48,554 nt of DNA from Actinomycetota bacterium (GTDB taxonomy: Bacteria; Actinomycetota; Thermoleophilia; RBG-16-64-13): contig JAAYCW010000034.1 in NCBI GenBank assembly GCA_012729575.1, forward strand, positions 1-48,554, written 5' to 3'. A model generated the notes under the pieces. It searched no databases, had not been told where the DNA came from, and worked only from the letters and a program-made list of their open reading frames with translations. Position 1 is the stretch's first letter. Every line of letters starts with the position of its first letter. Below, one piece after another: positions 18,682-47,912 of the stretch. The translations under genes were made by a program, and so were the position numbers.

Positions 18682-18692
18682 GTGGAGGAGAT

Positions 18693-25143: not shown

Positions 25144-25170
25144 CAGTGTCTCCTCAACGCAGACTTGCGA

Positions 25171-26142
25171 CTAGTAGGCGCGGCCTTTGGGCAGGATTGG
25201 TCTGTAGATGCCGACCTTGAGCACCCCGTACTTGAGCGAGAAGGCTCCGATCGTATGGCAGATGATCGCGAAGACGAGCAGTCCTGTTGACGCCTCTTCT
25301 CCCGTGAAATAGCTGACGACGGAGACCACCAACGGTACGATGATGCCCAGCAGTACTATGCCCAGCCAGAAGACCCAGGCCACGCGCCCGCGGACCAGTT
25401 CTTTCACCGATAATTCGGCCGTGGCCGACTGGTAATTCGCGTTGACCAAGTACATGATGATCAGCAGGGCGTTGACGATCAGCAAGATGCGCGTGGCCGA
25501 CTCTGCGGTAGGGATGACATCCTCGCCAGTGACCATCCCGACTCCCATGATGAGCGCCAATCCGTCCGCCACTCCCATGAGTAGGAACACGATCGGCAAC
25601 AGTCCTGTGTTCCAGAAGGGAACGCTTTTGCAGTAGCTCATGGCGAATCCGCAATACACGGCGGTCATCACGCCGAAGATGCCGGCCAGAACCATGAAGA
25701 CGTAGTTGGCCGCCCACACGCCGGAACTATCGGCCACATCGTAGGCGATGAGACCCTGCAGGATGAGTTGAATGGCCCCGAAGACCAAGAAGATCATGGT
25801 CATCACGATACCGCGGGCGAACCATGAGGTCCGCCACGCCTTACTGAATGGTGGGAAGGCCCTCCAGAAGCGGTACCACTTTCCAAGGTAGAAGGCGTGC
25901 AATGGCAACTTGAAGATCGCGATGCCGATCCAGCCGAGGATGCCTGCCCAGAAGGCTGTGACGGCGAATTCCTCCCGAAGGGCAAAGAAGATGGACACCA
26001 AGTAGAGGCCGGTGCCGAGGGCCGAGAAGACCTCAGCCCACCAAACCAGCAATCCTTTCCCAGAGATCCACTCGGTCTGAGCCATGGGCTTGATCATCCA
26101 CTCGTGGGTGACCATCCATTGACGGGCTGTCCGTGCGTTCAT
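25171..26142 (-). CDS. NrfD/PsrC-like integral membrane subunit
   Basis: About 8-9 TM helices, located between the 4Fe-4S subunit and the Mo catalytic subunit; WWAEVFSALGTGLYLVSIFF, AWRTSWFARGIVMTMIFLVFGAIQL. Confidence 0.75.
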   Translation of the reverse strand: MNARTARQWMVTHEWMIKPMAQTEWISGKGLLVWWAEVFSALGTGLYLVSIFFALREEFAVTAFWAGILGWIGIAIFKLPLHAFYLGKWYRFWRAFPPFSKAWRTSWFARGIVMTMIFLVFGAIQLILQGLIAYDVADSSGVWAANYVFMVLAGIFGVMTAVYCGFAMSYCKSVPFWNTGLLPIVFLLMGVADGLALIMGVGMVTGEDVIPTAESATRILLIVNALLIIMYLVNANYQSATAELSVKELVRGRVAWVFWLGIVLLGIIVPLVVSVVSYFTGEEASTGLLVFAIICHTIGAFSLKYGVLKVGIYRPILPKGRAY

Positions 26143-26158
26143 ATAAGCACTCCCCTAC

Positions 26159-26932
26159 CTAGTCCGCATTCTTCTTGGCAAGTTTCTCTTTGGATGGAGC
26201 GTAGACGGAGCTCAGATGCTGGATGTGGCTGCCGGTCTGCGCTTCGATAGGCGCCTTGTTGGACGGCGCGCCTCCCAGCTTGTAGTCGATGTAGTAGACG
26301 GAGGGCTCTGTGCCGTATTCGTCGTGGAGTACAAACCCGTTCTTCTCCCGGATCAGCTTGGAAACGTTGCTATTCGGATCGTCCAGATCGCCGAAGGTCA
26401 GAGCCCGGGCCTGGCAGATGTTCACACAAGCGGGGGTGGCTTCACGGTCGATTCCCGGTTTCAGTCCTTTGGCCAACCCGGCGTCAATGCGCTCCATGCA
26501 GAAGTTGCATTTCTCCGTGGTGCCTACCTGATGAGGGTAGATCTGCTTTCCCTTCTTCTCGAACCCGGTCTTGGCGTGCTCGGGGAAGTAATTGGGGTTG
26601 CGCTTGCGCGATAGATAGGTGCGGTTCTGATACGGGCAGGCGATGACGCAGTACCGGCAGCCGAAGCATTTGTTTGAGTCGATGGCTACGATGCCGTCCT
26701 CACGTTTGTATGAAGCCTCGGTAGGGCAGACCTCGACGCAAGGCGCCTCTTTGCACTGGTTGCAGCGGACCGGGTACGTGGAAACGTCGACGCTGAAGCC
26801 GTCATCGGTTTCAAGAGCTATCAGCCGCGGCCAGGTCATGCGCAACGGGAGGAAGTGCTCGATCCGGCACGCGGCGATACACCCGTGGCATCGGGTGCAC
26901 TTCGCAAGGTTGATGACCATACCCCATCTCAT
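26159..26932 (-). CDS. 4Fe-4S ferredoxin electron-transfer subunit (PsrB/DmsB-like)
   Basis: CTRCHGCIAACRIEH, CNQCKEAPCVEVCPTEASYKREDGIVAIDSNKCFGCRYCVIACPYQNRTY, CNFCMERID...CVNICQARALTFGDLDDP. Confidence 0.92.
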   Translation of the reverse strand: MRWGMVINLAKCTRCHGCIAACRIEHFLPLRMTWPRLIALETDDGFSVDVSTYPVRCNQCKEAPCVEVCPTEASYKREDGIVAIDSNKCFGCRYCVIACPYQNRTYLSRKRNPNYFPEHAKTGFEKKGKQIYPHQVGTTEKCNFCMERIDAGLAKGLKPGIDREATPACVNICQARALTFGDLDDPNSNVSKLIREKNGFVLHDEYGTEPSVYYIDYKLGGAPSNKAPIEAQTGSHIQHLSSVYAPSKEKLAKKNAD

Positions 26933-27663: not shown

Positions 27664-28623
27664 GTGGAACTAGATGACGTCAAGAAAGTAGCGATCTATG
27701 GTGCGGGCACCATGGGGCCCGGCTTGGCCCAAGTGTTTGCCTCTGCCGGATATGACGTGACCATGTATTCGCGCAAGCAGGAGACTCTTGAGAAGGCCAT
27801 GAGGGTCACGAAGGCAAATCTGGACACTTTTGTCGAACAAGGGTTGACCTCCAAAGATGCAGTTCCCACTATCCTCGCGCGCATCAAGACTACCCAGTCG
27901 GTCGAAGAAGCGGCGGTAGACGCCGACTTCGTCATCGAGACCATCGCAGAGAAGTTGGATGCCAAGAACGCGCTGTACGTAGAACTCGATCGCCTCCTAC
28001 CCGAAGAGACCATCATCACCAGTAACACCTCTTACCTCAACATCTATGAAGTGATGCCGGCGGCAAGGCTTCCGTATACGGTTATCGCCCACTGGTTCGC
28101 CCCCCCGCACATCGTCCCGTTGGTCGAGGTGGTCAAGGGCCCGGAGACCGCTCAGAAGACCGTAGATCTGATCGTGGAACTCCTCAAGACAGTGGAAAGA
28201 GTGCCTACCGTACTAGAGAAGTTCGTGCCCGGGTTCTGCATAAATCGTTTCCTGCGGATCATCGGTCGCGAGATCTTCTTCCTGCTAGATAACGGCTATA
28301 TGACCGCTGAGCAGCTCGACCTGGCCGTCAAGGCCAGCATCATCCCTCGGGCGATGGTCCTGGGCTTCGTCCAACGGTATGACTTCACCGGCATCGATCT
28401 GAGCTATGGCAACCTGCAGAACCCCAACTTCATCGAGCCGCCCATCGACAACAATCCCCGCAGCCTTGCGGAACTGATGGAGAAGGGTGAACTTGGAGTC
28501 AAGAGCGGCAAGGGCTTCTTCGACTACAGTGACCGGCCCCTGGAGCAGGTCTTGAAGGAACGCGATGCCGCTCTCATCAGAGTGTTCGAGGACGTCAAGG
28601 ACCTCATCTACAAGCGCATATAG
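27664..28623 (+). CDS. 3-hydroxyacyl-CoA dehydrogenase-family NAD-dependent dehydrogenase
   Basis: VAIYGAGTMGPGLAQVFASAGYDVTMYSR Rossmann motif; ITSNTSYLNIYEVM; AHWFAPPHIVPLVEVVKG (His/Glu dyad spacing retained); GKGFFDYS. Confidence 0.9.
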   Translation: MELDDVKKVAIYGAGTMGPGLAQVFASAGYDVTMYSRKQETLEKAMRVTKANLDTFVEQGLTSKDAVPTILARIKTTQSVEEAAVDADFVIETIAEKLDAKNALYVELDRLLPEETIITSNTSYLNIYEVMPAARLPYTVIAHWFAPPHIVPLVEVVKGPETAQKTVDLIVELLKTVERVPTVLEKFVPGFCINRFLRIIGREIFFLLDNGYMTAEQLDLAVKASIIPRAMVLGFVQRYDFTGIDLSYGNLQNPNFIEPPIDNNPRSLAELMEKGELGVKSGKGFFDYSDRPLEQVLKERDAALIRVFEDVKDLIYKRI

Positions 28624-28651: not shown

Positions 28652-29506
28652 ATGAAGCTACCAGCCGGCAAGGTGATCGTGACGGCGGCGCTCGACGGAG
28701 CGATGGTCACGAAAGAGATGAATCCCAACGTGCCGGAGCAGCCGGACGAACTCGCCCAGGCGGCGCTCGACTGCTACAACGCGGGGGCTGCCATCGTACA
28801 TATCCACGCGCGTGACGAGCAGGGCAAGCCGACCGGGACCAAGGAGAAGTTCGAAGAGATCCTGGCTGCTGTTCGTGGCAAGTGCAAAGACATCATCATC
28901 CAGTTCTCAACGGGCGGCGGAGCCAATCTCACCATCGAGGAGCGGGTCCGGTGCTTGGACGCCCTCCCCGAATCCGCCTCTTTGAACATGGGCACCCTTA
29001 TGCGCCAGACCGGGCCCTACGCCGGCCAGCCTTTTGCAAACCTGACCAAGGACATTGAAGCCTGGGCAACCAAGATGAGGGAACTCGGCATCAAGCCTGA
29101 GATGGAGTGCTACTCACAGAGCATGTACCGGGATGTCAACAACCTGATCAAGAAGAATCTGATCAATCCTCCGTACTACGTCAACATCGTACTGGGGATG
29201 CAGTACCAGGGCGCTATGGAGGCTACACCCGAAGCGCTGAACTCCATGATCGAGTTTCTTCCGCAGGAGTGCTACTTCAACTGTTGCGCTACTGCTGCCG
29301 CACAGTTGCCCATCACGACAATGTCGATGATCAGGGGCGGCGCGATCCGCGTCGGGCTGGAGGACAACATCTATTACTCTCGAGGCGTCTTGGCCGAGAG
29401 CAACGCACAGTTGGTGGAGCGTTCGGTGCGCATCGCCCGCGAACTCAATATCGAGCCGGTCTCTCCCGACGAAGCCCGGGAGATCCTGGGCATAGACAAA
29501 CGCTGA
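28652..29506 (+). CDS. Beta-keto acid cleavage enzyme (BKACE/DUF849 family)
   Basis: KVIVTAALDGAMVTKEMNPNVPEQPDELAQAALDCYNAGAAIVHIHARDEQGKPT; IRGGAIRVGLEDNIYYSRGVLAESNAQLVER. Confidence 0.93.
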   Translation: MKLPAGKVIVTAALDGAMVTKEMNPNVPEQPDELAQAALDCYNAGAAIVHIHARDEQGKPTGTKEKFEEILAAVRGKCKDIIIQFSTGGGANLTIEERVRCLDALPESASLNMGTLMRQTGPYAGQPFANLTKDIEAWATKMRELGIKPEMECYSQSMYRDVNNLIKKNLINPPYYVNIVLGMQYQGAMEATPEALNSMIEFLPQECYFNCCATAAAQLPITTMSMIRGGAIRVGLEDNIYYSRGVLAESNAQLVERSVRIARELNIEPVSPDEAREILGIDKR

Positions 29507-29570
29507 GACCCCGGCTCACACACGCAGGCCGATGGGGAGCTTTGGACCGCGAAAGGATGGTGGCTGGATC

Positions 29571-30344
29571 ATGGATGACCTGTTCTCCCTGAAGGGTAAG
29601 AACACCGTGGTGGTGGGCGGAGCCGGTGGCATCGGCCGGGGCCTCGCGAAGGGGTTCGTACAGTATGGGGCCCAGGTGGCCATCGCCGATATCAACGAAG
29701 CTTCGCTGGAGACAGCTGCGCAGGAGATCGAGGAGGCCACCGGCCAGAAGGTCTTGACCTATACGGTCGACACCGGAGAAGAGGGCAACGTGCAGGACCT
29801 GGTGGCGAGGGCTGTCGCCGACTTGGGCCGCGTTCACGTGCTCGTCAACGCGCAGGGTTTCAACACCAAGGCCCCGGCGACGGAGTTCCCGCTGGCCGAC
29901 TGGGACAAGTTGTTCAATGTGAACGTCCGTGGCGTCATGCTTTGCTGCAAGCATTTCGCGGCGCACATGGCCGAGCAGGGGGGCGGTAAGATCATCAACC
30001 TGTCCTCCATCCGAGGCGCACGTGCAGCTCTGGGCGGCAATCTGGCATATTGCGCCAGCAAGGGTGCCGTGAACATGATCACGAAGCAGCTGGCGGTTGA
30101 ACTGGCTTCCCGGAAAGTCTTGGTCAACGCCATCGCTCCGATCATCACTATCACCCCCATGACTGAGGAGCGGGTTAGGCGGGAGGCCGACCGGTATGAG
30201 AAGATGTTGGTCAACGTTCCCATGGGACGCATGGGTACCGTGGCCGATCTCGTGGGGCCGGCAGTTTTTCTGGCCTCACCGGCTGCCGACTTCGTGACCG
30301 GGACGATTCTCTACCCCGACGGCGGTACCATGTCATTCGTGTAG
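29571..30344 (+). CDS. SDR-family oxidoreductase
   Basis: LKGKNTVVVGGAGGIGRGLAKGFVQYGAQVAIADIN; YCASKGAVNMITKQLAVELA. ATG 29571 downstream of the ORF-track start. Confidence 0.92.
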   Translation: MDDLFSLKGKNTVVVGGAGGIGRGLAKGFVQYGAQVAIADINEASLETAAQEIEEATGQKVLTYTVDTGEEGNVQDLVARAVADLGRVHVLVNAQGFNTKAPATEFPLADWDKLFNVNVRGVMLCCKHFAAHMAEQGGGKIINLSSIRGARAALGGNLAYCASKGAVNMITKQLAVELASRKVLVNAIAPIITITPMTEERVRREADRYEKMLVNVPMGRMGTVADLVGPAVFLASPAADFVTGTILYPDGGTMSFV

Positions 30345-32439: not shown

Positions 32440-33366
32440 GTGTCGATCAAGTACAGGATCTTTCTCCACAGCTACCTTGGCTTCAATAGCAATTCCACCC
32501 TTTTCTACGGGGAGCGGGATGCCATTCTGATCGACACATCCCAGCTGCTGAGCGATGCCCACAGGATGGTCGCCGAGATGATCCCGCTGAGGAAGAACCT
32601 GACACACATATATGTGTCGCACTTCCACCCTGACCACCACTTCGGACTCGCGGTTCTCACTGCGGCTTTTCCGCGGGCGAAGGTCGTGGCTCTGCCGAGT
32701 GTGGTCAAAGACGTGGTCTTCACCTCCAGTGACAAGGTGGACATGTGGGCCATCGATCGCTTCGGTCCTGATATACCGGATAGGACCACTATCCCCAGGC
32801 CAATGCAGGAGCCCCGTCTTGAGCTGGAGGGACACGAGTTGCTGTTCTCCGACGGATGGGAAGGCGACAGCGTGAACAACTCCGTCGTCTGGGTGCCCTC
32901 GATCGGTGTCGTTTGTGCAACCGATGTGGCTTTTCACGACTGCAACTTGTGGCCTATCGAGAGCAACGTTGAGCGGCGGATCAGATGGCGCAAGGACATT
33001 AGGAGACTCATGGACTTCGATCCGCGCATCGTCATCCCCGGCCATCATGACGAGGCGAAGCTGGCGGTGCTCGAGGAGGTGCAAGAAGACCCCTCCCGCT
33101 CCTACACAGACTGTGTTGATTGGTCGGTCGAGTATCTCGACGTTTATGAGGATGCTTACAACCACGCGAAAGACGGTGCCGATCTGGTCGATCGGATGAA
33201 CAAGTACTACGGTGACGTCAAGGCGGAGGACTTCGCTCTCCACTGGCAGGCGAGGCTCTTGTTCCCACGTAGTTGCCCGGATTGGTTCACCCCTTTGCCG
33301 GGCGAGCCCGGTAGAATCTTCCTAAACCCAGCCGGCGGATACGACGGTGATCCGCCCAGAGAATAG
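32440..33366 (+). CDS. MBL-fold metallo-hydrolase
   Basis: YVSHFHPDHHFGL (HxHxDH motif); VIPGHHDEAKLAV. Confidence 0.85.
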   Translation: MSIKYRIFLHSYLGFNSNSTLFYGERDAILIDTSQLLSDAHRMVAEMIPLRKNLTHIYVSHFHPDHHFGLAVLTAAFPRAKVVALPSVVKDVVFTSSDKVDMWAIDRFGPDIPDRTTIPRPMQEPRLELEGHELLFSDGWEGDSVNNSVVWVPSIGVVCATDVAFHDCNLWPIESNVERRIRWRKDIRRLMDFDPRIVIPGHHDEAKLAVLEEVQEDPSRSYTDCVDWSVEYLDVYEDAYNHAKDGADLVDRMNKYYGDVKAEDFALHWQARLLFPRSCPDWFTPLPGEPGRIFLNPAGGYDGDPPRE

Positions 33367-33377
33367 GGGGCTTGAAC

Positions 33378-34193
33378 ATGCAGCTCGAAGGCAAGGTAGC
33401 GCTTATCACAGGTGGTGGGACGGGCATCGGTGCCGCGGTCACCGAACGGTTCGTGGCCGAAGGTGCGAAGGTGTGCATCACCGGCCGGCGGCGGGAGAAG
33501 CTGGAGGAGGTCCAGAAGTCACTGCCGGCCGGTAGCGTGAGCTTGTTTGCCGGAGATGTCTCCGGAGAGGGGAACGCGCCGCGGATGGTAGATACCGCTC
33601 TCAAGTTCACAGGGAAGCTGGACATTCTGGTCAACAACGCAGCAATCGAGATCAACAAACCCGTTGTCGACATGGATCCGGCCGACTGGCGTCAGATGCT
33701 CGAGGTGAATCTGACCGGACCTTTCCTGATGATGCAGGCGGTCATCCCCCGAATGATTGAAGGAGGCGGTGGGTCGATAATTAACGTGTCCTCCCTGGCA
33801 GGGGTAGTAGCAGTGCCCGGCGGGCCGGCCTACTGTACGACCAAAGCCGGTCTGATCCACTTCAGCAAGCAGGTAGCGCTGGACTACGGCAAGCAGAACG
33901 TCCGCTGCAACGCGGTGTGTCCGGGTCCCGTGCGCACGAGCATGCTCGAGTCGAACTTCAAGCCGATGGCCGAGGTGCTTCGGACCGACATGGACGGCGT
34001 CTTCGAGAAGATGGGCACCCATGTACCCATCGGATATGCCGCTAGGCCTGCCGATGTGACCGGCTTGTTTGTGTTCCTGGCGAGCGACGATTCGAAGTTC
34101 ATGACGGGCTCGACCCTTCTCATCGACGGCGGTGTTCACTTTGTCGATTCGTTCGCGGCCGCCATCGGTCAGTACGGTGCCAGTTGGGCGTAG
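33378..34193 (+). CDS. SDR-family oxidoreductase
   Basis: LEGKVALITGGGTGIGAAVTERFVAEGAKVCITGRR; NNAAIE; YCTTKAGLIHFSKQVALDYG. Confidence 0.92.
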   Translation: MQLEGKVALITGGGTGIGAAVTERFVAEGAKVCITGRRREKLEEVQKSLPAGSVSLFAGDVSGEGNAPRMVDTALKFTGKLDILVNNAAIEINKPVVDMDPADWRQMLEVNLTGPFLMMQAVIPRMIEGGGGSIINVSSLAGVVAVPGGPAYCTTKAGLIHFSKQVALDYGKQNVRCNAVCPGPVRTSMLESNFKPMAEVLRTDMDGVFEKMGTHVPIGYAARPADVTGLFVFLASDDSKFMTGSTLLIDGGVHFVDSFAAAIGQYGASWA

Positions 34194-34264: not shown

Positions 34265-36250
34265 CTAGACGCTGAGACGATCCAGCTGGTCTGCGACGTT
34301 GACCAGACCAAGCTCTGTGAGTACCTCTCTTGTGGGGATGCCTGTGCCGGGATCCCAACGCATGAGCCGGTAGTACTCGCCGAGGAGATGCTGCATGGTC
34401 TCTCTTGATACGACTGTTCCCTCGTGGGGGCCGCCCGCTACCGGCTCCTCGTAGAAGCGGTCTGGTATGTCGTCGTGCTCCCTTCGGACTCCCGCTCGTA
34501 CCAGAAACGCTCTCATCAAGTTGCACACGCGCTCTCCCTCTCGGACAAGCTGGTCGGCCGAGACCGGCTCGCCTCGATACGCCGAGAGGAGCTTCGCGTA
34601 GTGCGTGGGGCCGAGGGCGCAGAAGTAATTGGCTGAGTAGAGACAGAGGCCCAGCGAGTCGAAGAGGGGGGTCAGCTTGGACTGCCAGGCCGCGGTGGCC
34701 GCCTTGCCCTTAGGGTTGAGGGGATGGAGGCTCTCTGGGTCCAGGGGATCGCCGAATATCTGTCGCTTGGCGTCCTCGGTCATGTCGAGGGAATCCACGA
34801 AGTACTGCATGCGCTCCTCATCCTCCGCCTCTTTGGGACCGGTGGCTCTGTACACTTCCTCGAGCGCGAATCCCCGGGTGGTCAGAGCGTCGTCTCCACC
34901 CCGCGGGTTGATCATCAGGCCGAGGGTATCTTTGAGATTCCCCCCACGGGGCTCAACGGCCATGAGCTCCACACCTTTGGTGGTCATCGAGTACTTCTTG
35001 GCGCCTTGGCCGATCTCACGCGCGAGGTACACGCCGCCCTCGGCGAGGACGTCACCAAGACCTTCGCGGTGGGCTATCTTCCGGATCAGCTCAAGCGTCG
35101 TCGCTTCGTTTCCCCACGACAGGTCCAACCCGTCGCACTGTTCTCGGGTGAGCAGCCCTCTCTCGTAGAGCTCCATAGCGAAGGGGATGGGTATCCCGGG
35201 TGCGTCGAGCCCATATCTCTGGCAGAGTTCGTGGCATTTGAACATGGCCGGGTAGCTTCTGAGTTGGCAGGCCGTACCCCAGGTCGGGATGTAGCAGTAG
35301 CCGCCCACCTTGGTCCCCGCATAGGGGCCGTCCTTGATATCCGCGGCGACTTGGCAGCCGAAGTACTTCTCGAGCACGCAGTGGTAGCCGAAATGATCGC
35401 CCAAGACGAGATGCTGCTGTGCCGTCTCACGGGTCCTAAGGATGTCGCTACCCTCAGGGAGGATCGTGGACTGGTAGTTCTTACTCTGGAACATCCCGCA
35501 GCTCGCCATCCGCTGAAAGTCCTCGTAATAGACCCCGATCGGTCTCTCGTCGTGAGGATCTCCGGCCGCCCGGTCGACGATGCGCTGCGTCGATTCTTTA
35601 ACAGCACTTCGGAAGGCATCTGGATCCGCTACCCGTACCTCGCCGGTCCCTCTGACGACTATCGCCTTCAACCGCTTGGCTCCCATGACGCACCCGGCGT
35701 TACTCCGGCTGGGAGAGTGATTGTAGTCGGCGACCGGACAGGCGTACTTGACCAGGTTCTCGCCGGCTTGACCGATGGCCAGCACGCTGATGTCATCACC
35801 CAGTTCGCTCTTGAGAGCGTCCTCAGTCTCCCAGGCATCTTTGCCCCACAGGTGCGAAGCATCCTGGAGTTCCACACGGTCGTCGTCTATCAGAACATAC
35901 GATGGGGTCTTTGCCGATCCAGTCACGCGAAGAGCCAGATACCCAGCCTTGCGCAAGCGGGGTCCCCACGAGCCTCCGAAGTTCCCTACGCCCATGAGTC
36001 CGTTCAACGGCGACACCGTGGCCACGGAAGTGCGCCCGTTCGTGGGGGCCGAGGTGCCGGAGAGGGGCCCCGCTGCCACCACGAGGATATTGTCGGGGCC
36101 CAGCGCATCCGTCCCCGGATCGACCGCATCGTAGACATACTTGACTGCCAGGCCGAGGCCGCCGAGGTAGTCGCGGAGGAGTTCCTCTTCTATGTCTACG
36201 ATGCTGGTCTCAGCTTCGCTGAGTCTTACGTCGATCAGTCGGTCTCTCAT
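34265..36250 (-). CDS. Aldehyde:ferredoxin oxidoreductase (AOR) family protein
   Basis: LLRDYLGGLGLAVKYVYD...GTSAPTNGRTSVATVSPLNGLMGVGNFGGSWGPRLRKAGY; GVELMAVEPRGGNLKDTLGLMINPRGGD. ATG 36250 with upstream GGAGGACT. Confidence 0.88.
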   Translation of the reverse strand: MRDRLIDVRLSEAETSIVDIEEELLRDYLGGLGLAVKYVYDAVDPGTDALGPDNILVVAAGPLSGTSAPTNGRTSVATVSPLNGLMGVGNFGGSWGPRLRKAGYLALRVTGSAKTPSYVLIDDDRVELQDASHLWGKDAWETEDALKSELGDDISVLAIGQAGENLVKYACPVADYNHSPSRSNAGCVMGAKRLKAIVVRGTGEVRVADPDAFRSAVKESTQRIVDRAAGDPHDERPIGVYYEDFQRMASCGMFQSKNYQSTILPEGSDILRTRETAQQHLVLGDHFGYHCVLEKYFGCQVAADIKDGPYAGTKVGGYCYIPTWGTACQLRSYPAMFKCHELCQRYGLDAPGIPIPFAMELYERGLLTREQCDGLDLSWGNEATTLELIRKIAHREGLGDVLAEGGVYLAREIGQGAKKYSMTTKGVELMAVEPRGGNLKDTLGLMINPRGGDDALTTRGFALEEVYRATGPKEAEDEERMQYFVDSLDMTEDAKRQIFGDPLDPESLHPLNPKGKAATAAWQSKLTPLFDSLGLCLYSANYFCALGPTHYAKLLSAYRGEPVSADQLVREGERVCNLMRAFLVRAGVRREHDDIPDRFYEEPVAGGPHEGTVVSRETMQHLLGEYYRLMRWDPGTGIPTREVLTELGLVNVADQLDRLSV

Positions 36251-36334
36251 GAGTCCTCCCGGCGGCCTTTCCACTAGTTGTCACCCTTGCCGTGCGTCGG
36301 CTCTTCGACCAGACATTACCAGACTGTGCTGAAA

Positions 36335-36416: not shown

Positions 36417-37235
36417 CTATTTGGTGAGTGCGATATCTCCCAGGTTCACGTCCTTCTCGGTGTTGATCTCCTCGAGCGTCTTCGGCGCGAATCCATCGGC
36501 CGAGATCTCCAGCTTGTACGTATCTCCCTCGGCCAACCCCTCGAACCAGAAGTCCCCGAAACCGTCGGTGGTGACGCTCCAATTGCCGCCGTTGCCGTCG
36601 GTCAGAGCACAGGCCGCGCCTTCGACGATCTCCTTGGTGATGGGATCGTACACAGTACCGCCGATGAACTTCTTCGGGATGTTGAGGTAGTACACCCGCG
36701 GCTTGGCACCCAGTTCCGGCTTCAGGACTTCTGCCTCGGCGATCTCGGCGGCGAAATCGCCCTCTTCGCCGAACTTCAGGGCCTCGGTGGGGCAGGCGTC
36801 CACACACCGGGGGACCGTCCATTCGCCGCCATCGAGGAGGTGAGCGCACCCGGTGCACTTCTGCGCCAGGTTGAGATCGTCATTGAAGTAGATGGCGCCA
36901 TAGGGGCAGACGTCGACGCAAAGCCGGCACCCGGTGCACTTCAGCGAATCGATGATGACGAGTCCATCTTCCCGCTTGTAGATGGCTCCCTCGATCGGGC
37001 AGGGGGGAATGCACGGAGCTTCGTCGCAGTGCATGCATGGATTGGCGATGTAGTGCATCTTGACTTTGGGCACGGTGCCGCGAATGTGCTCGTCGAGCCT
37101 CATCCAGAACTGACCGGTGTCAGGCTGGGGCTTCGCGATCGGGGACCAATCGTTGCCGACGTGCTCGTCTTTGCAGACGAACTGGCAGGCGTAGCAACCC
37201 ACGCACAGGTTGACGTCCATAACGAAGACCTTCAT
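36417..37235 (-). CDS. 4Fe-4S small subunit with C-terminal transthyretin/Cna-B-like domain (transhydroxylase AthS-like)
   Basis: CVGCYACQFVCKDEHVGNDW; CMHCDEAPCIPPCPIEGAIYKREDGLVIIDSLKCTGCRLCVDVCPYGAIYF; C-terminal GAACALTDGNGGNWSVTTDGFGDFWFEGLAEGDTYKLEISADGFAP. Confidence 0.88.
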   Translation of the reverse strand: MKVFVMDVNLCVGCYACQFVCKDEHVGNDWSPIAKPQPDTGQFWMRLDEHIRGTVPKVKMHYIANPCMHCDEAPCIPPCPIEGAIYKREDGLVIIDSLKCTGCRLCVDVCPYGAIYFNDDLNLAQKCTGCAHLLDGGEWTVPRCVDACPTEALKFGEEGDFAAEIAEAEVLKPELGAKPRVYYLNIPKKFIGGTVYDPITKEIVEGAACALTDGNGGNWSVTTDGFGDFWFEGLAEGDTYKLEISADGFAPKTLEEINTEKDVNLGDIALTK

Positions 37236-39859
37236 TTGTCGCCCTCCTCGATCCAAGCGTCGAAGCGTAACCCGGCACCGGGGTCGTACTTCCTCGCGAA
37301 GGCCTCGGGGTAGTCCCTGCGCCACTCTTCCCATTCTTCGTTCTTGACCTTCTGCACATCGACCAAGTAGCCGCTTGTAGCTTGACCGACCGCGTTCTTG
37401 GACGTGATCCCGTTCGGTGCGATGGTGTTGATCGCTCCACCACGGCAGACCTTACCGGGGACCAACGGGTCATGTCGGGAGCCATGGTCGACGTACACAA
37501 CGCCGGGCTTTATCCTCTCCCAGACGCGTGCTCCCACGAGCACGATACCGCGCTCGTTAAAGATCTTGACCACGTCGCCGTCCTTGATGCCCCGAGGTTC
37601 CGCGTCGACGGGATTGATCCAGATAGGCTCGTACTTGTAGCCGTCGAATCCGAGCACCTTTCCTGTCGGGGTCTCACGTGCCCAACTGTTGTCGTCGCCC
37701 TGCGCATGTGTGCGCCAGCGCGGGTGATTCGAGACCAGGAGTAGCGGGAACATGGCCGCACGCTCGCTGGACAGGGCCTCGTCGTGGGTCTCGCCCTTCT
37801 CGATCCATTTCGGGAAGGGAGGACGCTCTTTATCATCGGGGAAGTGCTGGGCCAACCGCTCGGAATAGAACTCCAGAAGGCCGCTCGGGGTCTTCAAGGG
37901 GTTGTTCTTGGGGTCTATATAGAACTTGCGGAACCCCGGCGAGTCTTCCTCCCAATCAGTCGCCGTCTTGTACACGTAGGTCTTCTTCTCGTAGAAGTCC
38001 TCCCACGTGGTGAGGTTGTCGAGGTGCATGCTATCGAAGACCAGTTTCTGAAGGTCGAGCGTGGTCATACCCGTGGTAAATTCGTCGTAGAGTCCCAACT
38101 TCTCGGCGATAGCCGCCACGATCTCGTAGTCGCTCTTGGACTCACCGATCGGTCGAATAGACTGCTCCTGGATGGAGACGCTGGCGAAATGTGGTCCCTG
38201 ACGGGTGGTGGTGACGATATCCTCGACCTCGAGAGTCGTGTTGGCCGGAAGGATGATGTCGGCATAGAGACAGTCGTTCTCCAACCACGGATGCTGGGCA
38301 ACAACGCATTCGATGCTGGGGTCTTTCATGGCTTCTATCGTCCAGTTGCCGTGGTTCCAGCAGGTGATGCGGCAGGGAGTGTCTGTCCAGATCATGTGGA
38401 TCCGTACCCCGCCCTTATCCTTGGAAATGGGGTACGTGTACCGATCGAACTGCTCCTCAGTGGGGCTCTCCTGGCCGCCGGCGCCGTGGAAGACCAAAGG
38501 CGGCTTCAGGATGGCGTCCTGGATGAGGGTCTTGGGGATGAGCTGTGGACCCCAGGAGTGGACCGTGGTCCAGCAAGGCTTGGTGAGCCGCTCGGGCAGT
38601 TCGGGATTGAAGAAGCGGATACTGCCCAAGCCCTCCGCTCGTGGCATGCCGAAATAGGTCATCTGGCATTGATGGACTCCGGGCTTACCCAGTCCCTGCA
38701 TCCCGAGCAGGATGCACTCCAGCCGCCCCGGTTCGTGCGAGTACGGACCGCGGAACGCCGAGCCCCCGAAGTAGTGGATGATGGAGGTGGTGTTCTTGGC
38801 GAACTGCCTGGCAAGGGCCTTGATGGTCCACTCCGGTACGCCGCACTTGGGCGCAGCCCATTCAGGAGTCTTGGGGATGCCCTCCTCGTCCTCGCCGAGG
38901 ACGTAGGCGGCCACCTTGTCCATACCCACAGCGTGAGCGGCGACATACTCCTTGTCCCAGGTGTCCTCAGTCAGCCACACATAGATGATGGCCAACTGTA
39001 GCGCGGCGTCGGTGTTAGGCAGCACGGGGATCCATTTGTCGGCGTGCACCGCCGCAGCGTAGTTGAGGTCCGGGCAGATGTAGATCTGTTTGATGCCTGC
39101 TCGGGTCCAGAACTGCGAGATACGGCTGGCGTACTGGCCCGTGAAGCCCCAGGGCGTGGTCTCCTCATCGCACCCCCACTTAAGGACCAGGTCGGCATGC
39201 TCAGAGATGTCCTTGATGAGGTTTGCTGCGGGGGACATCATGCCTTGGAAGCCTTGACCCCATACATGCTTGGCCCCCCAGTACCAGCCCTCCCAGCTAT
39301 CCGGATTGCGGACCTGCTGGGTGAAGCCTCCCATCATGTCGAGCAATCGGGCCTGGTGGCCATGAGGAGTATGGATGGTCTTGCATTCCCCGTGACCGTC
39401 CCCCTGAGCAAGGATGGCGAGGGGCCCGTACTCCTTGTGGACCCGCCGTATCTCAGAGGCGATGATGTCGGTGGCTTCGTCCCAGGAGATCCTCTTGTAC
39501 TTGCTCTTGCCCCGATTCTGTGTGTTGCGTTCTCCATCGGGGTCCCAGTCGACCCGCTTCATGGGGAACTTGATGCGGTTAGGTGAGAACGTCCTCTTCT
39601 TGTAGGCGAGAGAGAAGGGAGCAGGAAGGGCCTTGGGTAGAGGCTGTAAGGTCTCGCCGTTACGCTCGATCTTCCATGGTCTGAGTGATTGGAAATCGTA
39701 TTTCCAGTCGTACTTGAGAGGCCTGATCCGAACGGCCTTGCCGTCCTTCACGTCGACGAAGCATTCCCCCCCGCCTCCGAGCAGACCACCCATCGCTAGG
39801 TTCTTGATGGTGACCTTGTCGACACTTACGTCGACCTTCTTGCGTTCCTCGTCTGCCAT
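37232..39859 (-). CDS. Mo-bisPGD large subunit, pyrogallol-phloroglucinol transhydroxylase/catechol dehydroxylase-like paralog
   Basis: 875 aa; FPMKRVDWDPDGERNTQNRGKSKYKRISWDEATDIIASEIRRV; NPDSWEGWYWGAKHVWG; overlaps its small-subunit gene. Confidence 0.85.
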   Translation of the reverse strand: MADEERKKVDVSVDKVTIKNLAMGGLLGGGGECFVDVKDGKAVRIRPLKYDWKYDFQSLRPWKIERNGETLQPLPKALPAPFSLAYKKRTFSPNRIKFPMKRVDWDPDGERNTQNRGKSKYKRISWDEATDIIASEIRRVHKEYGPLAILAQGDGHGECKTIHTPHGHQARLLDMMGGFTQQVRNPDSWEGWYWGAKHVWGQGFQGMMSPAANLIKDISEHADLVLKWGCDEETTPWGFTGQYASRISQFWTRAGIKQIYICPDLNYAAAVHADKWIPVLPNTDAALQLAIIYVWLTEDTWDKEYVAAHAVGMDKVAAYVLGEDEEGIPKTPEWAAPKCGVPEWTIKALARQFAKNTTSIIHYFGGSAFRGPYSHEPGRLECILLGMQGLGKPGVHQCQMTYFGMPRAEGLGSIRFFNPELPERLTKPCWTTVHSWGPQLIPKTLIQDAILKPPLVFHGAGGQESPTEEQFDRYTYPISKDKGGVRIHMIWTDTPCRITCWNHGNWTIEAMKDPSIECVVAQHPWLENDCLYADIILPANTTLEVEDIVTTTRQGPHFASVSIQEQSIRPIGESKSDYEIVAAIAEKLGLYDEFTTGMTTLDLQKLVFDSMHLDNLTTWEDFYEKKTYVYKTATDWEEDSPGFRKFYIDPKNNPLKTPSGLLEFYSERLAQHFPDDKERPPFPKWIEKGETHDEALSSERAAMFPLLLVSNHPRWRTHAQGDDNSWARETPTGKVLGFDGYKYEPIWINPVDAEPRGIKDGDVVKIFNERGIVLVGARVWERIKPGVVYVDHGSRHDPLVPGKVCRGGAINTIAPNGITSKNAVGQATSGYLVDVQKVKNEEWEEWRRDYPEAFARKYDPGAGLRFDAWIEEGDK

Positions 39860-39938: not shown

Positions 39939-40742
39939 CTAGTACGTAGGTTCTCTCGGGTTCCATCCCAGGTAGGCAGAGAACGAAGCAGCGGCTGCCT
40001 TGACAGCCTCGGTGCAACGGGCGCTCTCGGCCGGTCCGAAGCGACCCGTCGGTACTACTACAGAAATGGTAGCCGCGATGGCTCCGAACTGGTCGCGGAC
40101 AGGAGCGCCGACTGCGCAAAGCCCCATGTAGCGGCCCTCGATGTCGTAGGCCACGCCCTCTCTCGCCACCTGTTCCAGTTCGGCGGCCAGCACGTCGCGG
40201 TCCGTGATCGTGTGTGGGGTCTCTTTGGGAATGGGCCTAGCCAGGATGGCCTCTCTATCCTGGGGAGACTTGAAGGCGGCGAAGATCTTTCCATGGACGG
40301 TCGCTATATCGCCCAGGATGCGTCCGGGTGCGGTTCGGCGCTTAAACGGACGAGAGGTGTTTATGATGTCGACGCAGACAGGAAACCCGTCGACCTCCAC
40401 AGCCAGGGTGACCGACTCGCCGGTCTCTTCAACCAGCGCTCGGAGGAAGGGCCTTGCCGAGTCGATGAAAGCCGATTGATCGTCGGCGACATAGCACAAA
40501 GCCAGTGCAGCCGGTCCCAAACGATAACGGTTGCTCGCGGGGTCGCGGACAAGAAAGGCCATGGATTCAAGGGTTCGCACCATCCGGTAGGCAGTCATGC
40601 GAACCAGACCGGTCTGCTCGGCTATCTCATCGACCGTCCATTCGCGGTGGTCCACATCGAACAGTCCGAGAACCAGCAGCCCGCGAGTCAGCGCTCTAAC
40701 CGAGAGGGGATCAGTCTCTCGCGATCCGTTGCTCTCCGACAT
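39939..40742 (-). CDS. IclR-family transcriptional regulator
   Basis: VRALTRGLLVLGLFDVDHREWTVDEIAEQTGLVRMTAYRMVRTLESMAFLVRD; close paralog of the IclR at 30376-31194. Confidence 0.92.
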   Translation of the reverse strand: MSESNGSRETDPLSVRALTRGLLVLGLFDVDHREWTVDEIAEQTGLVRMTAYRMVRTLESMAFLVRDPASNRYRLGPAALALCYVADDQSAFIDSARPFLRALVEETGESVTLAVEVDGFPVCVDIINTSRPFKRRTAPGRILGDIATVHGKIFAAFKSPQDREAILARPIPKETPHTITDRDVLAAELEQVAREGVAYDIEGRYMGLCAVGAPVRDQFGAIAATISVVVPTGRFGPAESARCTEAVKAAAASFSAYLGWNPREPTY

Positions 40743-40836
40743 CCTTCCCCCATTGGCGTATGCTGAGCGTGGAGCCGAGCGTCTGTCTTGCAAATCAGTT
40801 GTACCTACTCTACGATACTAGCAGTATTACGGAATA

Positions 40837-40848: not shown

Positions 40849-40901
40849 CGTTTTATCCCCCAAATCACGACCATCTTTGGTCACATGGGAGCTGATGCTT
40901 G

Positions 40902-43430
40902 ATGGCTGAAAAGGTGTTCTCGAGTTGCACGAACAGCGGACCGGTATCGGTCTACGTCAAGGACGGCAAGATCGTCCGCATCCGTCCCTTGGTCGTGGAC
41001 GAGAAGGATTTCAAACCCTGGGTCATCGAAGCCGGTGACAAGAAGTATTCTCCTCCGAAGAAGGTCACTCTCTCTCCGTACATCCATGCCGAGCGGCGGC
41101 GGATCTACTCCGATGAGCGCATCAGGTACCCCATGAAACGCGTGGACTTCGATCCGAATGGTGAGCGGAACCCTCAGAATCGGGGCAAGTCTCGGTACGA
41201 GCGGATCTCGTGGGACGAAGCAGCCACGTTGGTCGCGAACGAGCTCACCCGCGTGAAGGAGACCTACGGCGGCTCGGCCATCAGCGGTATCACCTCCTCA
41301 CACCATAACTGGGGCATCGTCGGCTACAAGATGGGCCCGTTCGCCCGGTTTCTCAACATGATGGAAGGGACCCCGGTGCTGGATAATCCCGACAGCTGGG
41401 AAGGGTGGCATTGGGGAGCGACTCACAGCTACGGCTTCTACTGGCGCCTCGGCATGCCCGAGCCGTACGACATGCTGGGTGACGCCCTGCAGAACGCGGA
41501 GATGATCATCTACTGGTCCAACGACCCGGACAGCACCCGGGGCACCTACTCGGGTCAGGACTCCGCTCTGTGGCGGCAGTGGCTGAAGGAGAAGGGCGTG
41601 AAGATGGTCTTCATCGACCCCTTCTACAACTACACCAACGCCGTGATGGGCGGCAAGTGGATCGTACCGCGCATGGGTACAGACACTGCCTTGGCCATGG
41701 CCATAGCCTTCGTGTGGATCACTGAAGACATATACAACAAGGACTATGTGGCGAACCGTACCATCGGTTTCGATGAGTTCAAGAAGTACGTGCTCGGCGA
41801 GATCGACGGCGTCCCTAAGACCCCCGAGTGGGCTGAGGAGGAGTGCGACGTTGACGCTCGTGTCATCCGCACCCTGGCCCGGGAGTGGGCCGCCAAACGC
41901 ACCATCCTCTCCGGCGGCTCCCGCGGTGGAGAGGGAGGGGCCTGCCGGCAGGCCTACGCCACCGAGTGGGCCCGGATGATGGTCCTCCTGCAGGCCATGC
42001 AGGGGCTGGGTGCGCCGGGGCGTAGCATCTGGGGTACCACGATGGGAGCTCCCAACAACACCACGCATTGGGTGCCCGCCTATGGCGAGCCTCAAGGCCG
42101 GATATCGATGGCGACCAAAGTGGCCAAGTACGTTCCGACCAATCCCAACCCGCAGCGCCTATGGCGTCTCACGGTGCCTGAGGCTATCCTCGATCCGCCC
42201 GTGGAGTGGTACGGAGAGGGCTTCTGCGGGCAGAGTCTCGAGCAGCAGTTCAAGCACTTCGTCTATCCCGCCCCCGGTTGCTCGGAGATCAAGCTGTGGT
42301 ACCGGTACGGCGGTTCCTTCATGGGGACGATGAGCGACACCACCAAGTGGGTGCGGATGTATCAGAGTCCGAAACTCGAGTTCGTGGTGAATCAGGATAT
42401 CTGGTGGAATAGCGAGACCCGCATGGCCGACGTGATTCTGCCGGCCTGCACCAACTTCGAACGGGACGATCTGGGTGAGTGGGCCGCCGTCAACGGCTAC
42501 ACCTGGCACGCCAGCAGCGGCTGCAACTACCGCGTGGTCGTCCGCGAGCAGAAGTGCATCGAGCCCTTGTGGGAGTCGAAGTCCGACTACGAGATATTCG
42601 CCCTGATCTTCGAGAAAATGGGGATGCGGGATCTCTACACCGACGGTGGCAAGACCGACGTCGACTGGGTGAAGGGCTTCTTCGACGCTTGTGATCTGCC
42701 CAAGCTGGTCAGCTGGGAGGAGTTCAACGCGAAGGGCTACCACATCATCAACATCGAGGATGACTACAAGCCCACTCCGGGTCTGCGCTGGTTCTATGAT
42801 GGGCGGCCCTGCGATACTCCGGACGTGGGCAATGCGAAGCGCCTCGATCCAGAGAAGTCGGGAGAGCTTGGGACCTTCAGCGGCAAGATCGAGTTCGTTT
42901 CGGAGAGCTTGAAGCAGTACTTTCCCGATGACGAAGAGCGCCCTGTGGCGCCGCGCTACATCCGAAGCTGGGAGGGGTACGGCACGCCCGGTCTGTACGA
43001 GAAGTACCCGTTGCAGCTTCTATCGCCGCATCCGCGCTTCAGCTTCCACTGCCATTACGACAAGCACACCGACTGGCTGAACGATATTTCCGTCCATCGC
43101 ATCAAGAAGGACGGCCACCCCTGGTGGCCGGCGCGCATCAATCCGGAGGATGCTGCGGAGCGGGGCATCAACACCCACGACATCGTGCGGCTGTACAACG
43201 ACCGGGCTTCTGTACTCTGTATCGCCGTGGTCACCGGGCGGGTGCGGCCCGGAGTGATACACAGCTATGCGTCCTCAGCTATGTATGACCCCCTACAGCC
43301 CGGTGAACCGGATTCTATAGACAGAGGCGGGTGCGTCTCCATGCTGACCCCGTCGCGGATGCTCTCGAAGAACGTACCGGGCATGACGCCGAATTCCTGC
43401 CTTATCGAGATCGAGAAATGGGAGGGCTGA
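40902..43430 (+). CDS. athL: Pyrogallol hydroxytransferase (pyrogallol-phloroglucinol transhydroxylase) large-subunit-like Mo enzyme
   Basis: SVYVKDGKIVRIRP; YPMKRVDFDPNGERNPQNRGKSRYERISWDEA; SSHHNWGIVGYKMGPFARFLNMM; NPDSWEGWHWG; LSPHPRFSFHCHYDKHTDWLNDI, as in Pelobacter-type transhydroxylase recalled from knowledge. Confidence 0.85.
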   Translation: MAEKVFSSCTNSGPVSVYVKDGKIVRIRPLVVDEKDFKPWVIEAGDKKYSPPKKVTLSPYIHAERRRIYSDERIRYPMKRVDFDPNGERNPQNRGKSRYERISWDEAATLVANELTRVKETYGGSAISGITSSHHNWGIVGYKMGPFARFLNMMEGTPVLDNPDSWEGWHWGATHSYGFYWRLGMPEPYDMLGDALQNAEMIIYWSNDPDSTRGTYSGQDSALWRQWLKEKGVKMVFIDPFYNYTNAVMGGKWIVPRMGTDTALAMAIAFVWITEDIYNKDYVANRTIGFDEFKKYVLGEIDGVPKTPEWAEEECDVDARVIRTLAREWAAKRTILSGGSRGGEGGACRQAYATEWARMMVLLQAMQGLGAPGRSIWGTTMGAPNNTTHWVPAYGEPQGRISMATKVAKYVPTNPNPQRLWRLTVPEAILDPPVEWYGEGFCGQSLEQQFKHFVYPAPGCSEIKLWYRYGGSFMGTMSDTTKWVRMYQSPKLEFVVNQDIWWNSETRMADVILPACTNFERDDLGEWAAVNGYTWHASSGCNYRVVVREQKCIEPLWESKSDYEIFALIFEKMGMRDLYTDGGKTDVDWVKGFFDACDLPKLVSWEEFNAKGYHIINIEDDYKPTPGLRWFYDGRPCDTPDVGNAKRLDPEKSGELGTFSGKIEFVSESLKQYFPDDEERPVAPRYIRSWEGYGTPGLYEKYPLQLLSPHPRFSFHCHYDKHTDWLNDISVHRIKKDGHPWWPARINPEDAAERGINTHDIVRLYNDRASVLCIAVVTGRVRPGVIHSYASSAMYDPLQPGEPDSIDRGGCVSMLTPSRMLSKNVPGMTPNSCLIEIEKWEG

Positions 43431-43434
43431 GATC

Positions 43435-44274
43435 ATGGCGCGTCTGAGCCTACTGATCGATGTGACCAAGTGTAGCGGGTGCCACAACTGTTTCTTGGCC
43501 TGCCGTGACGAGTTCTACGGTAACGACTACACCCCCTACTCCGCTCCCCAGCCTCTTGAGGGGCAGTTCTGGATGCAGATCAAGGAAGTCGAGCGGGGCA
43601 CCTATCCAAAGCCGAAGTTGGACTACATACCGCTCCCTTGTTTGCACTGTGAGGAGGCGCCCTGCGTAGCGGCGGCTGCGGATGGGGCTGTGTACCGCCG
43701 CGCAGACGGAATCGTGATCATCGATCCCGAGAAGGCCAAAGGGCAGAAGGACATCGTGAATTCCTGCCCGTATCGGGTGATCTTCTGGAACAAGGAACTC
43801 GAGATCCCCCAGAAGTGCACTCTTTGCGCCCACCGGCTGGACGAAGGTGAGAAACAGCCCCGTTGCGTGGAAGCCTGCCCTACGGGTGCCCTTGTATTCG
43901 GCGATCTGGACGATCCGGAGAGTGAGATCGCGAAGCTCTCGGCCTCTCTGGATGTGGAGGTCTATCATCCCGAGTATGCTTCTCTGCCGACGGTCAAGTA
44001 TGTCGGTATCCCCAAGCGCTTCATTGCGGGTGAGGTAGTACGTCGGGACGTTCCAGGCGAGTGTGCCGAGGGGGTGAAGGTCACGCTCGAAGGCGGTGGT
44101 GTCAGTTTGGAGACCCTGTCCGACAGCTACGGCGATTTCGAGTTCGACGGGTTGGAGAAGAACACCGATTATCGAGTGGGCGTCGAGTGCGATGGCTATG
44201 CGCCGATGATCATTGAGGTCTCCACGCAGACGGATGTCGATCTGGGGGAGATCGTTCTCGAACCGTTCGACTGA
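43435..44274 (+). CDS. athS: Transhydroxylase small-subunit-like 4Fe-4S protein with C-terminal beta-domain
   Basis: LLIDVTKCSGCHNCFLACRDEFYGNDY; RGTYPKPKLDYIPLPCLHCEEAPCVAAAADGAVYRRADGIVIIDPEKAKGQKDIVNSCPYRVIFWNKELEIPQKCTLCAHRLDEG; C-terminal GGVSLETLSDSYGDFEFDGLEKNTDYRVGVECDGY. Confidence 0.87.
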   Translation: MARLSLLIDVTKCSGCHNCFLACRDEFYGNDYTPYSAPQPLEGQFWMQIKEVERGTYPKPKLDYIPLPCLHCEEAPCVAAAADGAVYRRADGIVIIDPEKAKGQKDIVNSCPYRVIFWNKELEIPQKCTLCAHRLDEGEKQPRCVEACPTGALVFGDLDDPESEIAKLSASLDVEVYHPEYASLPTVKYVGIPKRFIAGEVVRRDVPGECAEGVKVTLEGGGVSLETLSDSYGDFEFDGLEKNTDYRVGVECDGYAPMIIEVSTQTDVDLGEIVLEPFD

Positions 44275-46619: not shown

Positions 46620-47912
46620 ATGCGAATCGACGTACCCTGGGGCACGGGGACGACCTCTGTTGAGTTGGATGCCGAACGGGTTACGGGCGTATTGGGGGCG
46701 AATGTCGCGACGGCCGACGATCCCGAGGAGATCTTGCGAGTGGCCATCTCGCGGCCGGAAAGTGATATGCGGAGCTTCCTGGCTCGGGCGGCCTCTCCCC
46801 TTGTTGTGGTGGTCAACGACGCGACCCGCCCTACGCCGTCGGCCGACGTTCTTCGCGTATTACGCGCCGATCTTGAGGAGTGGCTTGAACCCCCGGGTAG
46901 GGAGTTGGCCTTCGTCATAGCCACCGGGACTCATCGAGCCGCACTCCCTGAGGAGATCGATCGCATCTTTGGCAAAGAGTTCGTCGATGCCCACGCCGGA
47001 CGGATCTTCTCGCACGATTCCAAGGACAAGACACGGTTGGTGCATCTGGGGCCGACAAAGCGCGGGGTCCAGGTGTGGGTGAACCGGCTCCTGGCGGATG
47101 CCCGCAGCGTGCTGCTCATCAACTCCGTGGAGCCGCACTACTTCGCGGGTTACACGGGGGGACGTAAGTCGCTCTTTCCGGGATTGGCCGGCTATGAGAC
47201 AGTGTGGGCCAATCACAGCCTGTCAATGGAGGCCGGGTCGGAACTCCTCGCCCTGAGTGGCAATCCGGTCCACGAGGATCTCCAGGATGAGCTCGCTCTC
47301 GGTGTTCGGGGCAAGAGCGTCTACTCTATACAGCTCGTGCTCGATAAGGACCACCGGGTGGGCTTCGCGGCCGCGGGCGGGTTGGACGATACGTTCGGTC
47401 GGGCCGTGGCGGTGGCGGACAAACAGTTCGTCCTTGAGATCGACCGTCGTGTCGACTTGGTGGTGGCGGTCGCTCCTCATCCCATGGACTGCAATCTCTA
47501 TCAGACCAACAAGGCCATCCAGAGTGGAGCTTTGGCCGTCAGCGACGGGGGCATACTGATCGTGGTTTCTGAATGCCCGTTCGGTCTGGGGGAGAACCAG
47601 ACTCTCTTCGATATGCTGGCGGCAGCGGACTCGCCCGCTGAGGCGCTTGAGCGGGCCAAACGGCAGGAGTACATCTTGGGAGTCCAACAGGCGGCTCGGA
47701 TCGCCACCATCCTCGAACGGGCCGAGATCTGGACTGTCAGCACGCTTAGAGATGAGGATGTGCGGGCCATGTTCATGACGCCCTACCGCGACCTGCAAAT
47801 CGCCGTGGACCGGGCCCTGCAGCAGAAGGGACCGGAGGCGCAAGTCCTGTTCCTTACAGAGGCGAGCATCACTGTACCTCGGGTGAGGGAGGACCGTCAG
47901 CAGGACACCTGA
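46620..47912 (+). CDS. LarA-family (nickel-pincer lactate racemase-like, DUF2088) protein
   Basis: VVVVNDATRPTPSADVLRVL; VIATGTHRAALPEE; HYFAGYTGGRKSLFPGLAGYETVWANHSLSM. Confidence 0.87.
   Translation: MRIDVPWGTGTTSVELDAERVTGVLGANVATADDPEEILRVAISRPESDMRSFLARAASPLVVVVNDATRPTPSADVLRVLRADLEEWLEPPGRELAFVIATGTHRAALPEEIDRIFGKEFVDAHAGRIFSHDSKDKTRLVHLGPTKRGVQVWVNRLLADARSVLLINSVEPHYFAGYTGGRKSLFPGLAGYETVWANHSLSMEAGSELLALSGNPVHEDLQDELALGVRGKSVYSIQLVLDKDHRVGFAAAGGLDDTFGRAVAVADKQFVLEIDRRVDLVVAVAPHPMDCNLYQTNKAIQSGALAVSDGGILIVVSECPFGLGENQTLFDMLAAADSPAEALERAKRQEYILGVQQAARIATILERAEIWTVSTLRDEDVRAMFMTPYRDLQIAVDRALQQKGPEAQVLFLTEASITVPRVREDRQQDT

Follow-up and report, generated by a model that had tools for sequence, protein, structure and literature searches.

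What does a second transhydroxylase-like enzyme do in a genome that already encodes one resembling PgTH, the enzyme that converts pyrogallol to phloroglucinol? The question is raised by a gene pair at positions 36417-39859 of an Actinomycetota contig (JAAYCW010000034.1), analysed here as a single stretch of 48,554 nucleotides, the window. The initial annotation took the pair for a diverged paralogue with an altered active-site motif and a possible new polyphenol dehydroxylase. Our analysis places its catalytic subunit in a large sister group of PgTH, apparently with no characterised member, here called clade B as opposed to the PgTH-type clade A. We tentatively propose, at somewhat less than even confidence, a cytoplasmic alpha-beta enzyme of the PgTH family with a bis-MGD (molybdopterin guanine dinucleotide) cofactor, which would carry out PgTH-like hydroxyl transfer on a polyhydroxyarene distinct from pyrogallol and so feed phloroglucinol breakdown. 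The two genes are:

37232-39859, minus strand: catalytic Mo (bis-MGD) alpha subunit, clade B of the PgTH family; 875 aa, ATG start (reading frame, Pfam, alignment, Foldseek).
36417-37235, minus strand: Fe-S/beta subunit with four [4Fe-4S] Cys motifs and a C-terminal CarboxypepD_reg-like domain; 272 aa (reading frame, Pfam, PDB match).

Domains, the Ser ligand motif NPDSWEGW, the type of beta subunit, the tree and the fold all assign the pair to the PgTH family in the broad sense (AhtL/BthL-like). The 272-aa beta frame begins at MKVFVMDVNLCVGC and its ATG overlaps the alpha stop codon by 4 bp (ATGA), a 305-aa frame from 37334 being merely the longest ATG option; the architecture first described, an 875-aa Mo subunit overlapping an Fe-S/beta subunit as in the 40899-43430 pair, is thus borne out. 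In the Pfam scan the alpha subunit matches the AhtL-like/pyrogallol hydroxytransferase-type domain 1 (PF21423, 36.6 bits against a cut-off of 27) and, also above cut-off, PF00384 (molybdopterin) and PF01568 (dinucleotide-binding), with no match to PF04879, that is, no N-terminal [4Fe-4S] domain. The beta subunit carries Fe-S domains and PF13620 (CarboxypepD_reg), and its best PDB match is 4v4c_B (E 3e-54, residues 3-268). By sequence, the solved structure nearest to alpha is PgTH of Pelobacter acidigallici (PDB 4v4c; E 9e-128, 431 bits), the only structurally solved member of the phenol-modifying family found here. Structure prediction agrees, since an AlphaFold2 model of alpha (pLDDT 86.6, pTM 0.89) retrieves 4v4c_A at Foldseek rank 1 with a TM score of 0.84; TorA/DorA come next among the solved structures by sequence and fold. 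Acetylene hydratase was rejected as an identity (E 8e-15 versus 9e-128 for PgTH; fold rank 32). His156 of alpha corresponds to His144 of PgTH and Asp187-Ser188-Trp189 to Asp174-Ser175-Trp176, which makes Ser188 the predicted Mo ligand. Because the N-terminal end of alpha contains no twin-Arg motif and the pair has no gene for a membrane anchor next to it, the enzyme looks soluble.

The resemblance to PgTH breaks down in the substrate pocket, which we mapped on PgTH numbering across 110 clade-B and 26 clade-A sequences. Assignment to A or B was made by position 145 itself, the remaining positions being independent of that choice, and the sequences split cleanly between a QxDxHGExK...HG motif in clade B and SSHHxWG in clade A. 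As originally noticed, the window's alpha subunit retains NPDSWEGWYWG and has GDGHGECKTIH where SSHHNWGIVGY otherwise stands; the flanks align without gaps, and one of the two adjacent His residues is left, with the equivalent of His144 kept and His145 replaced by Gly. The change proves larger than first described, for Tyr152, Tyr404 and Tyr560 are lost as well and the beta subunit has an extra Fe-S motif. We take His144, Tyr152, Arg153, Tyr404 and Tyr560 to be the substrate-contact residues of PgTH, their roles being those reportedly assigned by Messerschmidt et al. 2004; each residue letter agrees with the PgTH sequence at its number, and only His144 survives in the window's clade-B alpha. 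The 40899-43430 alpha keeps His144, His145, Tyr152, Tyr404 and Tyr560, with Lys in place of Arg153.

These pocket differences run through most or all of clade B. His144, Ser175 and Glu177 never vary in either clade and Asp174 and Trp176 hardly do, the Ser ligand position being aligned as Ser in all 110 clade-B sequences. Position 145 is His in 26 of 26 clade-A sequences and Gly, Ser, Ala or Cys in 110 of 110 of clade B; position 152 is Tyr throughout clade A (26/26) and Thr, Ala, Pro or Gly in nearly all of clade B; position 404, again Tyr in 26/26, is a gap in 86/110; and positions 559-562 are deleted in every clade-B sequence (110/110), so that Tyr560, invariant in clade A, is always gone. 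In their place clade B conserves a set of its own (Gln140 in 103 of 110, Asp/Glu142 in 110, Glu146 in 109, Lys148 in 105, His154 in 109 and Lys184 in 108), and the conservation of Asp/Glu142, His144, Glu146, Lys148 and His154 among 110 homologues argues that the altered pocket did not arise by chance. Compared with PgTH, then, the alpha subunit is about 32% identical and has His145, Tyr152, Arg153, Tyr404, Cys557 and Tyr560 replaced or deleted, while sharing the alpha-beta organisation, the fold (TM 0.84), the Ser ligand, His144/Asp174/Trp176 and the barrel-type C-terminal domain of beta. Loss of the Tyr residues together with the new charged set suggests another substrate or another orientation, and the His, Asp, Ser and Trp retained at the Mo site point to oxygen or hydroxyl chemistry on a ring. 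At the level of sequence and model, the family, the fold, the predicted Ser ligand, the kept His/Asp/Ser/Trp, the replaced contacts and the extra Fe-S motif are established.

The second departure lies in the beta subunit. Cys78, 99, 102 and 105 of the 36417-37235 product would, by the usual ferredoxin pattern, ligate one further, fourth [4Fe-4S] cluster, so that it does not conform to the three-cluster beta subunit of PgTH proper. These residues occur in 87, 87, 65 and 87% of 78 clade-B beta subunits, respectively, and in 0 of 16 from clade A; at least three of the four are present in 68/78, and they are absent from the PgTH small subunit and the further clade-A beta subunits inspected. The 10 clade-B proteins that lack the motif fall mostly in one group (Moorella, Sporomusa, Gordonibacter, Peptococcaceae).

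Phylogeny supports a separate clade beside PgTH. In a tree that included TorA, DmsA and catechol-dehydroxylase-like proteins as outgroups, the combined A+B family and clade B each have a bootstrap of 100; clade A as a whole reaches only 58, and may therefore be paraphyletic. An earlier large tree gave clade B a support of just 0.37, which we attribute to that tree's long outgroup. The paralogous alpha subunits are 36% identical over 848 columns, and the 40899-43430 protein is much nearer to PgTH (863 versus 431 bits). The pair is accordingly a diverged paralogue with an altered pocket, as had been proposed, and a different substrate or regiochemistry is probable: the pocket residues differ from those of the paralogue, and no characterised member was found in the clade. 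The suggested kinship with the catechol dehydroxylases of Eggerthellaceae did not hold up, in that the pair groups with PgTH next to TorA/DmsA (bootstrap 100), has Ser as its Mo ligand and carries no [4Fe-4S] domain at the N-terminus. Catechol dehydroxylases form a separate clade near acetylene hydratase (PMC7028382), and those characterised are of about 770 or 1193 aa (PMC11585353), unlike the 875-aa alpha subunit. The Eggerthella/Gordonibacter enzymes (Dadh, Hcdh, Cadh, Dodh, Cldh, Eadh) share with clade B the dimethyl sulfoxide (DMSO) reductase superfamily, an anaerobic polyphenol context and multiple copies in gut Actinomycetota; membership was rejected on the tree, domain content, Ser ligand and size. 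In a second tree, more than 20 catechol-dehydroxylase-like proteins of Ca. Gordonibacter avicola, used as proxies and not individually assayed enzymes, formed a separate distant clade with another window gene, 22945-25143. The open-access papers found treat such genes as pyrogallol hydroxytransferases, or deal with PgtL and RhL alone, and in none of them is clade B, or the pocket it has, described; subscription literature lay outside the search.

The surroundings of the pair form an island, which comprises:

39939-40793, minus strand: IclR-family regulator in the gap separating the head-to-head alpha genes, in the same orientation as the clade-B alpha gene and 80 bp upstream of it.
40899-43430, plus strand: clade-A (PgTH-like) alpha subunit (PgTH match, pocket mapping).
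43435-44274, plus strand: clade-A beta subunit, without the fourth-cluster Cys (Pfam, beta alignment).
27664-28623, plus strand: 3-hydroxyacyl-CoA-dehydrogenase (HCDH)-type protein, candidate triacetate-forming dehydrogenase TfD (Pfam, locus comparison).
28652-29506, plus strand: BKACE-family protein, candidate triacetate acetoacetate-lyase TAL (312 bits to Pfam BKACE; no NCBIfam equivalog reaches its cut-off).
29532-30344, plus strand: SDR, candidate phloroglucinol reductase PGR (PRK08213 is among its best matches and also among those of the SDRs in loci L113 and L081).
33372-34193, plus strand: second SDR, next to clade-B genes also in L054 and L078.
34265-36274, minus strand: aldehyde ferredoxin oxidoreductase (AOR)-family protein, downstream of the beta gene and co-directional.

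The HCDH-type, BKACE and SDR genes belong to the same families as the Clostridium scatologenes enzymes TfD, TAL and PGR (PMC10470551) and likely represent a phloroglucinol pathway. The paralogous pairs share family, island and head-to-head position, and differ in that the clade-A pair has a PgTH-type pocket and a three-cluster beta subunit. From a scan of genome contigs the best 80 of 588 loci were taken, so that the distribution of the clade is a lower bound. Seven genomes of the window's family, its own included, have a clade-B orthologue head-to-head with a PgTH-like gene, 1.0-1.1 kb apart, with an IclR gene in the gap in the window, L054 and L055. Clades A and B occur together in 14 of the 80 scanned loci (1.22 Mb) from five phyla, four of the 14 being orthologous Actinomycetota loci; a rough chance yardstick, from 3-5 clade-A genes in a 2.2-Mb genome, is 2-3 loci. 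HCDH-type, BKACE and SDR neighbours are common to the window, L054 and L078; TAL- and TfD-family genes lie beside clade B in Actinomycetota (L054, L057, L078) and, with DPGC-family (PF04199) genes, in Bacillota (L111, L113), and PF04199 genes do so in L071, L077, L079, L080 and L081. The conserved pairing with a PgTH-like gene and the placement by phloroglucinol-type genes are established as far as gene order and homology go. The AOR gene was rejected as a conserved partner, having no homologue in the other scanned loci, and a promoter scan gave nothing above shuffles.

PF04199 has no match in the window and four on other contigs of its genome. A metallo-beta-lactamase-fold protein (32440-33366, plus strand), kept in L054 and L078 within the phloroglucinol-type operon, sits where the PF04199 dihydrophloroglucinol cyclohydrolase (DPGC) might be expected and may instead serve as the ring-opening hydrolase. 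About 10 loci have catechol-dehydroxylase-like genes close to clade B, and in three (L065 303-5731, L066 4459-11907, L086 6641-13420) a clade-B gene stands directly next to one on the same strand, apparently in one operon. Elsewhere two clade-B alpha genes follow each other directly, either overlapping or separated by a few bases, and are trailed by one beta gene at most (L077 9692-16050, L097 896-7083, L110 9887-15838, L120 626-6192); in the last three the alpha subunits come from different subclades, which suggests alpha-alpha'-beta complexes.

How might such an enzyme work? That the reaction is hydroxyl transfer is our inference, as are the substrate and the way electrons flow. The aromatic ring would bind over the Mo held by Ser188, with Asp187 and His156 in acid/base roles; one ring hydroxyl would leave to Mo, and a second ring would receive oxygen at another position. 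The product would then pass to the neighbouring PgTH-like enzyme and on to phloroglucinol reduction and ring opening; the island suggests that it enters phloroglucinol breakdown. The rebuilt pocket, the transhydroxylase-like neighbour and the likely phloroglucinol-degradation genes make oxygen-free hydroxyl shifting on a different plant polyphenol probable. Several points weigh against this reading. With Tyr404 and Tyr560 absent, the PgTH mechanism is not transferable one residue at a time; some clade-B genes have no such partner genes nearby (Dehalococcoidia) or lie beside catechol-dehydroxylase-like genes; and the complete fourth [4Fe-4S] motif, which has no PgTH counterpart, is what would be expected of an enzyme that exchanges electrons with a partner.

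Such electron exchange could run in either direction. Were electrons to enter through the four-cluster beta subunit, Mo could remove one polyphenol hydroxyl as water, and the enzyme would be a reductive phenol dehydroxylase of a second lineage within the DMSO reductase family. This is possible though doubtful: the presence of the fourth motif in most clade-B and no clade-A beta subunits examined (68/78 versus 0/16), the catechol-dehydroxylase-like genes nearby and sometimes adjacent, and the roughly ninefold occurrence in Ca. Gordonibacter avicola, which is related to gut polyphenol dehydroxylators, speak for it, but there is no conserved electron-transfer partner or membrane anchor, the Moorella, Sporomusa and Gordonibacter group lacks the fourth cluster, and the tree places clade B with a redox-neutral enzyme, the cluster perhaps being simply ancestral. 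Were electrons instead to leave through beta, a water-derived hydroxyl could be added to a resorcinol-type ring, as by RhLS of Azoarcus anaerobius, which acts on a phenol and whose RhL is placed in the same Ser-ligated RhL/PgtL family (PMC10100899). In favour of this are also the four clusters of beta, which could conduct electrons outward, and the clade-A relatives on proteobacterial plasmids, beside VOC-family and fumarylacetoacetase-like genes. We consider it rather unlikely, since several hosts look fermentative or acetogenic with no obvious electron sink, and those hydroxylase-like relatives belong to clade A.

A non-phenol substrate such as an S- or N-oxide is unlikely: TorA/DorA follow PgTH among the solved relatives and TorA/DmsA are the neighbours in the tree, but the pairing with PgTH-like and phloroglucinol-type genes is conserved, and the pair has the AhtL-like domain 1 and a PgTH-type beta subunit with its C-terminal domain. 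A second PgTH, converting the same pyrogallol to phloroglucinol, would share architecture, island and fold, yet is highly improbable and was rejected as an identity, because the three Tyr residues invariant in clade A are replaced or deleted across clade B and the genome already has the adjoining clade-A gene plus others.

Clade B occurs in Actinomycetota, Chloroflexota, Desulfobacterota, Acidobacteriota and Bacillota, in genomes from sediment, rumen and gut, with cultured hosts in Moorella stamsii (one copy), Sporomusa acidovorans (three) and S. silvacetica (one). The window's genome, a 2.2-Mb metagenome-assembled genome 97% complete, has about seven clade-B and 3-5 clade-A alpha genes, some cut by contig ends, and the orthologue in Actinobacteria bacterium RBG_16_64_13 is 90% identical to the window's. 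The single gut genome of Ca. Gordonibacter avicola encodes about nine clade-B enzymes (genome of L114; loci L137, L139, L142, L144, L146-L151), several of the genes lying within a few kb of catechol-dehydroxylase-like genes.

Other observations concern neighbouring chemistry. A set at 22945-26932 (minus strand) encodes a 732-aa [4Fe-4S]-domain molybdoenzyme (22945-25143), an NrfD membrane protein and a DsrO-like Fe-S protein; the first is distantly related (about 35%) to the many catechol-dehydroxylase-like genes found in Ca. Gordonibacter avicola, and by homology the set is a better candidate for reductive dehydroxylation than the clade-B pair. At 16507-20537 (plus strand) an ATP-grasp/CoA-binding acyl-CoA synthetase-like gene overlaps one for a thiamine pyrophosphate-dependent ferredoxin oxidoreductase (indolepyruvate type), with a plausible role in energy conservation from aromatic acids. 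A nickel-pincer racemase (LarA family; 46620-47912, plus strand), whose best match, malate racemase LarAH6, is below the curated cut-off, adjoins the island. Clade-A alpha-beta pairs on Burkholderia, Salipiger and Ensifer plasmids (L050 4594-13418; L052 9557-15772; L053 9557-18420), by VOC-family and fumarylacetoacetate hydrolase genes, suggest anaerobic-type hydroxylases acting before oxygen-dependent ring cleavage.

Pelobacter massiliensis carries out further transhydroxylations, from hydroxyhydroquinone to tetrahydroxybenzenes, for which we know of no genes. With limited confidence, clade B as a whole may be a second, independent reductive phenol dehydroxylase lineage of the DMSO reductase family, or may comprise hydroxyhydroquinone/tetrahydroxybenzene transhydroxylases, expanded in gut and sediment anaerobes and supplying the phloroglucinol pathway. 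Metagenome homologues have been annotated as pyrogallol hydroxytransferase (e.g. PMC3971608, PMC4959651); since the entire clade lacks the pyrogallol-binding residues, that label, and any claim of pyrogallol degradation built on it, may be mistaken in many genomes. The presence of clade B in cultured Sporomusa and Moorella makes its reaction assayable, and its members are candidates for those steps of anaerobic transhydroxylation or dehydroxylation that have no assigned genes.

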